In this document: positions 10,031-31,053 of the stretch, piece after piece
How the letters are laid out: every line of letters begins with the position of its first letter
Numbering within the stretch: position 1 is the stretch's first letter
Assembly (NCBI RefSeq): GCF_900107665.1
Contig: NZ_FNQT01000001.1
Coordinates: 107,742 to 171,741, forward strand
Direction: 5' to 3'
Source: Haloplanus vescus
Lineage (GTDB): Archaea; Halobacteriota; Halobacteria; Halobacteriales; Haloferacaceae
Length of the DNA stretch: 64,000 nucleotides
Notes under the pieces: model-generated
The model's input: only the letters and a program-made list of their open reading frames with translations
The model's database searches: none
Told to the model about the DNA's origin: nothing
Program-made: the position numbers and the translations under genes

Positions 10031-10050
10031 AGGGAGTGGCATACGGAGAA

Positions 10051-10358
10051 GTGGACTAGGTCGGGCAGTTAGGCCCTGCTCGTACTTCCCGCACTACGGT
10101 CTTGAGCGGGGACCGAACCCGGGGGCGTCCGGTCAGACCGGTTCGGGCCTCGGGAGCCAACGTGGAAGCCTCGTCCTTCGGGGACAGCGGTCCGCGGCGT
10201 GCGTCCGCAGGGGCGCTCCGTCGCGGTTCGTCGGTGGCATTGGGTCAGGCGCGGAAGCGAGCAGCCCACCGCCGGACGCCAGTCGCTCGACGGATCGCGG
10301 GGTGGAGGAGGCGACCGGGACTCCCCGGAGCGGAACGCCGGGCAATCCCGTTGTCCGC
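10051..10358 (+). ncRNA. Archaeal signal recognition particle RNA (7S RNA)
   Basis: The domain-IV (helix 8) signature is present at 10236-10271: TGGGTCAGGCGCGGAAGCGA followed by GCAGCCCA, which contains the GTCAGG, GGAAG and AGCAGCC elements bound by SRP54. The ends close as helix 1: GTGGAC (10051-10056) pairs with GTCCGC (10353-10358), allowing one G-U pair. The length of about 308 nt matches archaeal 7S RNA. By family it forms the SRP with SRP19 and SRP54 for co-translational targeting to the membrane. The exact ends are inferred from the closing helix. Confidence 0.93.
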
Positions 10359-10432
10359 ATTCATACCGTCACTTTCCTGCCGAGCGGTGTCGCTGTCGTT
10401 CCAGCCGTGATTCTGATCCTCACACCGACAAG

Positions 10433-22056: not shown

Positions 22057-22596
22057 TTACGCCGCGTCGGTGACCAGCGTGTCGTCTTCGAGGTAGTGTT
22101 CGAGGTGGTGGGCGTGTTCCTCGACACCGATGAGTTGCTCGCGGAGCATGTGCGCGGTGGCGTGGTCGCCGAGTCCCTCGGCGAGTTCGATGTGCTCGCG
22201 GTAGCTCTCGATGATGTCGCCGTACATCTCGAGGTCGTTCGCGAGCGACGTGCGGACGTCGTACACGTCCTCGTCTTCGGGTTCGACTGTCGACGCCTCG
22301 GTGAGCGCCGGCATGCTCGCGTGCGGGACGCCGCCGATTGCCTGCAGGCGCTCTGCGATTTCGTCCGCCGCCGCCTCGACGGCCTCGTAGGCCTCCTGCA
22401 GGAAGACGTGGATGTCGCGGAACTCCGCACCCTCGACGTTCCAGTGGTGCTTGTGGAGCTGGTGATAGAGGACGTACGCGTCCGCGAGGTCCGTGTTCAG
22501 TGCCTCGATAATCTGCTCGGTCTTCTCCTCGTCAAGTCGAACCGGGTTCTCGCCCACCGTGCCTGCCTCCTGCCGAACGGACTTCTGCGTGTTCAT
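22057..22596 (-). CDS. dps: DNA-protecting ferritin-like protein Dps (DpsA)
   Basis: 179 residues. Ferroxidase ligands of the Dps family are visible: YHQLHKHHWNVEG near residue 45 and FRDIHVFLQEAYEAVEAAADEIAERL near 60-85. The C-terminal helices (EHIELAEGLGDHATAHMLREQLIGVEEHAHHLEHYLED) are longer and His-rich, as in Halobacterium DpsA. By family it forms a dodecamer that oxidises Fe2+ and stores iron, and protects DNA from peroxide. The ATG at 22596 is preferred over an upstream in-frame ATG that would add 14 residues. It converges with the DtxR-fold gene, 6 bp apart, so iron storage sits directly beside iron uptake. Confidence 0.95.
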   Translation of the reverse strand: MNTQKSVRQEAGTVGENPVRLDEEKTEQIIEALNTDLADAYVLYHQLHKHHWNVEGAEFRDIHVFLQEAYEAVEAAADEIAERLQAIGGVPHASMPALTEASTVEPEDEDVYDVRTSLANDLEMYGDIIESYREHIELAEGLGDHATAHMLREQLIGVEEHAHHLEHYLEDDTLVTDAA

Positions 22597-22650
22597 CACA
22601 GTATATCCAACGGCGTCCACCCTCTTATAACTTATCAAGATTTATACAAT

Positions 22651-22668
22651 TTTTCGCATGGCCTAAAA
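22651..22668. promoter_or_regulatory. Degraded iron box upstream of dps
   Basis: TTTTCGCATGGCCTAAAA: the right arm GCCTAAAA is intact and the left arm is degenerate (TTTTCGCA). It lies about 55-72 nt upstream of the dps ATG, beyond the TATA-like TTTATAC (22641-22647), so a bound regulator would sit upstream of the promoter, where activation is possible. Confidence 0.4.
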
Positions 22669-22796
22669 CTCGCATATCGTGGCGAGGTGGTCTGCTACTC
22701 CGCAAATTGAAGAAACATGTCGGCCGAGAATTACTATTCGTCGCAGTCTCAGTCGAAGGTGGAAAGAGCAAAAGCAAGTTCGGGCCGGGGAGTCAT

Positions 22797-23058
22797 CTCG
22801 GCAAGGACTGCCGAGTTGGTTGCTCCCGCGTATGGCTCGCACGGGGCCCGCGGCTCAGCGATACGTCGCTGACGGCCGCGAGCAACGAGACACGCCCTCA
22901 GCCGAGGTGGCCTCATCGAGCGTCCAGCGTCTCGGTGTGAGAGACGAGCGACACCGAGCCTTCGATATTTTCCCGTGCCGACTCCGTGTTGTTAGTCGTT
23001 TGGGATTGGAGAATACATATCGAGCGTCTCGGTTCCCCGACGCAGCTAGCGACGCTCG
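22797..23058. other. Structured non-coding segment with four strong hairpins, candidate RNA gene
   Basis: The roughly 480-bp gap between dps and the next gene has no convincing reading frame. It has four good dyads in a row. CTCGGCA/TGCCGAG lies at 22797-22815. CGCGGC-TCAGCGA/TCGCTGA-GCCGCG around a TACG loop lies at 22849-22880, enclosed by GTTGCTC (22819-22825) and GAGCAAC (22880-22886). CTCGGTGT/ACACCGAG lies at 22931-22958. CGAGCGTC/GACGCTCG lies at 23021-23058. This density is unlike the other intergenic gaps in the window. The strand and function are unknown; the last hairpin could serve as a terminator of the minus-strand gene that ends at 23081. Confidence 0.4.
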
Positions 23059-23080
23059 GGACTGCTCGATAGCCGGCCGG

Positions 23081-30982: not shown

Positions 30983-31053
30983 TGCGCCGGCCGGGATTTG
31001 AACCCGGGCCATGAGCTTGGAAGGCTCAGGTCCTACCACTAGACCACCGGCGC
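30983..31053 (-). tRNA. tRNA-Gly (anticodon UCC)
   Basis: Reads on the minus strand as a 71-nt cloverleaf. The acceptor GCGCCGG (31047-31053) pairs with CCGGCGC (30984-30990), with discriminator A. The anticodon stem TGAGC/GCTCA encloses CTTCCAA, giving UCC. The T arm CCGGG/CCCGG surrounds TTCAAAT. Its 3' end faces the accessory-looking region at lower coordinates and is partly duplicated there. Confidence 0.95.

Follow-up and report, generated by a model that had tools for sequence, protein, structure and literature searches.

A conserved RNA gene between dps and a DUF5789 gene

We analyzed a 64 kb stretch of a haloarchaeal genome (G000:C1:107742-171741, hereafter the window), in which a gap separates the start of a dps gene (ferritin-like, PF00210, 22060-22596, minus strand, ATG at 22596) from the stop of a DUF5789 gene (PF19102, 23081-23680, minus strand). 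Both genes are neighbors, dps lying outside the RNA system described here. An earlier note had placed four hairpins in this gap, and all of them were found at the positions it gave: hairpin 1 at 22797-22815 (minus strand, 7 bp with a loop of 5), hairpin 2 at 22849-22880 (minus strand), whose longer stem includes a core at 22855-22872 of 7 bp (TCAGCGA/TCGCTGA) with a TACG loop, hairpin 3 at 22931-22958 (8 bp, assigned to neither strand) and hairpin 4 at 23021-23058 (minus strand, 8 bp), just 3' of the DUF5789 gene. Its remark that no frame looks coding also fits, as no gene of the annotated type was found in the gap. These 291 nt contain four perfect stems of 7 bp or longer, against a mean of 0.575 in dinucleotide shuffles (n = 1000), three of which reached that count; hairpin density alone is modest evidence, because 22 of 657 stretches within the window match it. 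Compared with shuffled sequence, 22780-23070 folded better on the minus strand (z = −3.66, none of 200 shuffles as good) than on the plus strand (z = −1.93, 5 of 200). For the RNA unit itself (22760-22932), the values were −2.57 (4 of 200) on the minus strand and −1.56 (16 of 200) on the plus strand.

As judged from its sequence, the minus strand from 22926 to 22762 encodes a member of an independent, sporadically distributed RNA family, and we infer that the RNA of the window is transcribed. The conserved gene (about 22762-22926) was delimited by homologous blocks elsewhere, from a kink-turn hairpin to the end of an antisense tail, and the match of our model R1 (see below) spans positions 1-161 of 161. 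From 5' to 3' on the minus strand, the kink-turn hairpin is followed by a middle that is structured but variable, and this by the 3' tail. It includes two of the four hairpins plus sequence to the left of the interval previously noted: hairpin 1 lies in the 3' part and hairpin 2 in the variable middle, its sequence being unconserved between genomes. Hairpin 3 is located just 5' of the RNA unit and hairpin 4 outside it; from its position, the latter is perhaps part of the 3' end of the DUF5789 gene. What stands of the candidate new RNA proposed earlier is a conserved unit with homologs in other haloarchaeal genera and without an Rfam match; it is encoded on the minus strand, its ends differ from those proposed, and hairpin 4 at least is excluded.

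The distance from the kink-turn to the end of the tail ranges from 69 to 186 nt across the RNAs, whose middles differ greatly. Within the middle, a conserved hairpin (CCCGUG..CGCGGG, with GCCAUA in the loop; 22825-22845, minus strand) changes from A-U to G-C on both sides in two of eight sequences. Its single G.U pair, as read on the minus strand, would turn into C.A if the opposite strand were transcribed. Some single G.U pairs favor either strand (L025 compared with the window). Covariance among relatives, which the earlier note had named as a check, gave moderate support to a four-helix structure in the eight sequences of the long type: five pairs had changed on both sides, and the covariation score was 0.186 against 0.137 for shuffled alignments (19 of 500 reached it) and 0.03-0.10 with slid partners. 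An RNA on the plus strand was rejected, given that the block 22892-22923 reads as a kink-turn on the minus strand only and that a plus-strand tail would have the sequence of its target instead of the complement. Upstream of the gene, a TATA-like sequence read from the letters, AAAATATC (22964-22971, minus strand), is a possible promoter; no strong common promoter position was found in 27 sequences upstream of the RNAs.

A kink-turn at the 5' end of the RNA

The RNA starts with the pattern GCUC-GAU-GA-G-GCC...GGC-U-GA-GGGC, which corresponds to a standard kink-turn (22892-22923, minus strand) as defined in PMC5539422. It is composed of a C stem (22918-22923 with 22892-22897), a GAU bulge (22915-22917), tandem G.A pairs (22913-22914 with 22898-22899), a 3b.3n position (22912 with 22900) and an NC stem (22909-22911 with 22901-22903), all on the minus strand. 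The arrangement of stem, 3-nt bulge, two G.A pairs and second stem recurs in all 24 aligned RNAs, although the search pattern by which most of these were collected prescribes many of the kink-turn bases. The G.A positions are kept, and the adjacent position varies (G.U, A.C, U.G, and C.U in L037). Pair counts for covariation within the kink-turn were not above those of shuffles in this alignment. The window's RNA is the sole site of the kink-turn pattern in its genome, and the motif makes it probable that L7Ae binds the RNA.

Sporadic distribution in haloarchaea

A search of the genus (12 genomes, including the window's own) detected the block 22762-22922 in G002, G004, G005 and G010, in none of them at dps. 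Two further matches, in G002 and G007, covered the dps promoter region only, and short matches occurred in G001 and G003. The region upstream of dps (22617-22668) is 82-85% conserved in G002 and G007 at places from which the RNA is absent, and constitutes a separate promoter element. Searching the family (148 genomes) added G029, G050 and G027. Model R1, built from six RNA sequences, reached distant genomes in other families (G404, E = 1e-24; G321, E = 1e-15); its matches L041, L045, L049-L055, L057 and L058 looked coding or fortuitous on visual inspection and were dropped. Scanning named genomes with a pattern returned 27 stretches, 19 of them non-haloarchaeal; the analysis covered the eight haloarchaeal ones (four Halorussus, plus Halorientalis, a Natronorubrum plasmid, Haloglomus and Halomarina). 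At E ≤ 0.001, R2, a model of the kink-turn only, matched 20 of the class's 391 genomes, a lower bound because the filters were strict. The distribution is sporadic, a detectable copy being absent from most genomes of the class. Weaker R2 matches in G289, G391 and G353 were later backed by pairing with the target described below.

Rfam 15 gave no match at gathering score in the window's gap or at four named loci, the best matches below threshold having E-values of 6.4 and 8.9. RNase P RNA (RF00373) and SRP RNA (RF01857) were discarded as identities, both being located elsewhere in G000. Box H/ACA sRNAs carry an ACA box at the 3' end; the tails here read CUCUUUYGCC or similar by eye, and this identity was also rejected. 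So was a viral origin: a loose pattern matched at least 121 viral sites, none with the tail motif among the matches listed, and a strict pattern matched none. Neither this RNA nor any sRNA directed at aIF5A was described in the literature that we searched, with partial coverage. It is apparently a small RNA of salt-loving archaea undescribed so far.

The 3' tail is complementary to the start of aIF5A

Two matches of the family search (L026 and L027) that might have passed for chance turned out to be the start of the aIF5A gene, which was the clue to an antisense target. The 3' segment at 22764-22784 (minus strand) faces nucleotides +7 to +27 of aIF5A (A of the ATG = 0) with 19 Watson-Crick pairs, one G.U pair and one mismatch; the tail is complementary to codons 2-9. 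RNA and target are unlinked in the window's genome (RNA at C1:130503-130665, aIF5A at C2:51029-51400), and the genes do not overlap. A 19-nt pattern allowing up to three mismatches found, in that genome, the RNA gene (none), aIF5A (one) and two sites with three; apart from the RNA gene and aIF5A, no site within 2 of 19 mismatches was present. A 17-nt probe, run with one mismatch on nine other genomes (Halorussus group), found aIF5A in all nine. It also found RNA genes at eight sites, two of them in G404 and none in G250 or G423, where the RNA is cut by a contig end and too different for the probe, respectively. Its one other site, in G423, looks coding. The reversed 17-nt pattern, used as a control, had no match in the nine genomes.

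With aIF5A taken from 30 genomes with RNA candidates, the ungapped antisense score exceeded z = 3 over dinucleotide shuffles in 24 of 31 RNAs, and in 21 of the 31 it was reached by none of 100 shuffles. The seven RNAs at or below 3 were those of G321, G313, G259, G425 and G299 and the second copies G420b and G256b. Five of six further genomes also paired with aIF5A (at most one of 200 shuffles reaching the score). Among the five, G391 has a tail matched to the CAA codon in the aIF5A of that genome, and G353 pairs too; G365, a poor kink-turn match, had no aIF5A pairing. A prediction made beforehand was partly right for G275, and one for G289 was wrong as written, another G289 segment pairing at +18 to +34. 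In G404, a second and differently built copy pairs perfectly over 18 nt.

Other second kink-turn copies do not pair with aIF5A and may have different targets. The G343b copy showed no such pairing, and among the starts of neighboring genes nothing convincing emerged as target of G420b, G256b or G343b. Copies of this kind lie in L064 at 1507 (minus strand), L168 at 7373 (minus strand) and L172 at about 6621 (plus strand), those of L064 and L168 on the same strand as, and just upstream of, an FttA gene.

Duplex energies computed with RNAduplex for the whole RNA, an approach that is too permissive, failed to distinguish aIF5A: in the window's genome, 82 of 200 shuffles were as good. As targets are shared between relatives, the cognate tail had the best or joint best energy in no more than 6 of 23 genomes.

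Tail and target change together

Cognate pairs summed to 360, compared with 302 when targets were permuted and 337 when they were permuted within three groups (23 of the 31 RNAs, in one register). Eight RNAs had been dropped beforehand, either for z ≤ 2.5 or, in the case of G425, G191 and G296, for a best pairing elsewhere. Under either scheme none of 20,000 permutations reached the cognate sum, although these results are not exact probabilities, because the 23 RNAs were chosen by their cognate score and the genomes are related. Individual codons illustrate the trend. Codon 3 of aIF5A in the Halorussus group (n = 8) is AAA in four genomes and AGA in four, and the RNA matches in all eight; codon 7 is CAA in the window's genome and CAG in G002, G004, G010 and G005, and the window's RNA matches CAA. 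Across these comparisons of sequences, the tail tracks the codon changes of aIF5A.

A captured fragment of aIF5A without function, with RNA and gene merely sharing descent, might give a similar picture, since the genomes are related and co-inheritance can mimic covariation. We nevertheless regard it as very unlikely: the match is limited to the tail while the RNA bodies differ between genomes, copies of different build in a single genome share it, and codon changes are tracked within groups.

Possible silencing of a presumably leaderless mRNA

A TATA-like box lies at −30 (29 genomes) or −29 (one genome) of the aIF5A ATG in 30 of 30 genomes. Such spacing of a TATA box is expected of a leaderless promoter, so the aIF5A mRNA should be leaderless. 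If the mRNA begins at or near its AUG, what remains for pairing close to its start is codons 2-9. In Haloferax volcanii, 72% of the protein-coding transcripts are leaderless (PMC4983044). The predicted accessibility of the RNA differs along the tail, the part that faces +2 to +9 being mostly unpaired (0.57-0.83) and the part that faces +11 to +24 mostly paired (0.14-0.44). The target is essential in H. volcanii, and the authors of that work suggested conditions that need its fast down-regulation (PMC3828320); Halobacterium aIF5A cleaves RNA (Wagner and Klug 2007, cited in PMC9599864).

We propose the following scenario. The RNA would be transcribed from the minus strand as a trans-acting antisense sRNA, with L7Ae bound to its 5' kink-turn. 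Its free 3' end, facing nucleotides +2 to +10 of aIF5A, might serve as a toehold, the rest of the tail being held in the RNA's own stem until pairing. Pairing would then cover the 5' end (codons 2-9) of the leaderless mRNA, and the duplex could block ribosome loading or start decay, lowering the level of this essential translation factor. The probable reading, in our view, is silencing of aIF5A by an sRNA that acts in trans, is probably associated with L7Ae and covers the 5' end of the mRNA. The gene family, the motif, the pairing and the covariation are read from sequence; transcription, L7Ae binding, the sign of regulation and any part played by the nucleases near the RNA are inferred.

Targets are known for few archaeal sRNAs. 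Control of haloarchaeal mRNAs by sRNAs is an open question because most of these mRNAs are leaderless (PMC4983044). Methanosarcina mazei sRNA162 (PMC3510493) and Haloferax sRNA132 (PMC6560208) and s479 (PMC8155600) are likewise reported to be independent RNA genes whose products pair with trans-encoded mRNAs. Our candidate differs from them in its kink-turn scaffold, its single target conserved across many genera, its predicted pairing with the first codons of an mRNA that presumably lacks a leader, its target covariation and sporadic distribution, and in being known from sequence alone. It shares a kink-turn and a proposed role of L7Ae in translational control with the 5' UTR of archaeal l7ae mRNAs, where L7Ae autoregulates its synthesis (PMC5539422, PMC6298567), but that kink-turn acts in cis within the mRNA, whereas here a separate RNA would act in trans. 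An RNA family whose target at a leaderless mRNA 5' end can be read from sequence and covaries makes silencing of such mRNAs directly testable, and possibly programmable via the tail. It also points to control of aIF5A, for which the need of fast down-regulation had been suggested (PMC3828320).

Genomic neighborhood and alternative readings

The neighborhoods of the RNA contain recurrent genes. Among 28 RNA-bearing stretches (about 8-17 kb), 16 have an FttA or RNase J homolog, 15 a DUF7504 gene and 21 at least one of the three; these are raw counts that include related genomes, with Pfam names taken from one member each. DUF5786, TFS and macro-domain genes also recur near RNA copies. L064, L087, L088, L095, L100, L103 and L168 are stretches with FttA or RNase J, TFS, DUF5786, DUF7504 and macro-domain genes. 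The RNA cassette looks mobile, and the accessory neighborhood looks like mobile duplicates of RNA-processing genes. Within the genus, a second close copy of FttA, the archaeal termination factor, occurs in only four of 12 genomes (G002, G004, G005 and G010), in each of which the RNA lies divergent from this gene. These second FttAs (L137-L140, from G004, G010, G005 and G002, respectively) are 92-100% alike and about 70% identical to the usual FttA. The window's genome also has an RNase J-like beta-CASP gene (L156, G000:C1:1302515-1303699), with one in-frame TAG in the match.

This association could mean that the RNA, held by L7Ae, guides an accessory FttA (CPSF73-like) or RNase J to cut the aIF5A mRNA, which the nuclease homologs in more than half of the stretches and the coincidence of second FttAs with RNAs divergent from them in the same four genomes would favor. 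We consider it unlikely, however, since the window's genome has the RNA without a second FttA and 12 of the 28 stretches have neither nuclease, the co-location counts being raw. U7 snRNA guides CPSF73, and the two systems would be alike in joining an antisense RNA with a CPSF73-family nuclease if the FttA link were functional; here that link is one of genomic proximity only. A broader version, also with a low probability in our view, would be a mobile silencing module of haloarchaea, an archaeal analog of U7-guided cleavage: kink-turn guide RNAs and accessory nucleases of the CPSF73 family (RNase J or a second FttA) would find the leaderless mRNA of aIF5A and cleave it at its 5' end, and the tails of other copies would target other mRNAs.

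Complementarity itself is silent on the sign of regulation. Pairing might stabilize or activate the aIF5A mRNA, or the mRNA might act as a sponge for the RNA; this seems improbable, as a duplex right where an mRNA with presumably no leader begins is expected to hinder initiation.

The kink-turn also recalls L7Ae-bound box C/D sRNAs, having C- and D-like strands: CGAUGAG and CUGA are present in the window's RNA, with a box C that lacks the RU of RUGAUGA (consensus from PMC5539422). A modification guide acting on the aIF5A mRNA is nonetheless extremely unlikely. Only a short stem-loop separates boxes C and D, no guide was found directly upstream of D or D', a C'/D' pair was not seen, and the antisense segment, whose target is an mRNA start, lies at the far 3' end and not beside box D.

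Least credible of all is the iron- or stress-linked RNA that the earlier note derived from dps. The RNA does share the strand of dps, 166 nt upstream of it, but relatives do not keep this position, for which reason a dps leader was rejected as well. The other RNA-bearing stretches that we read show no evident dps neighbor, and in the congener G002 the RNA is located apart from dps.

Elsewhere in the window, Rfam models match an SRP RNA at 10049-10360 (plus strand) and a tRNA at 30983-31053 (minus strand).
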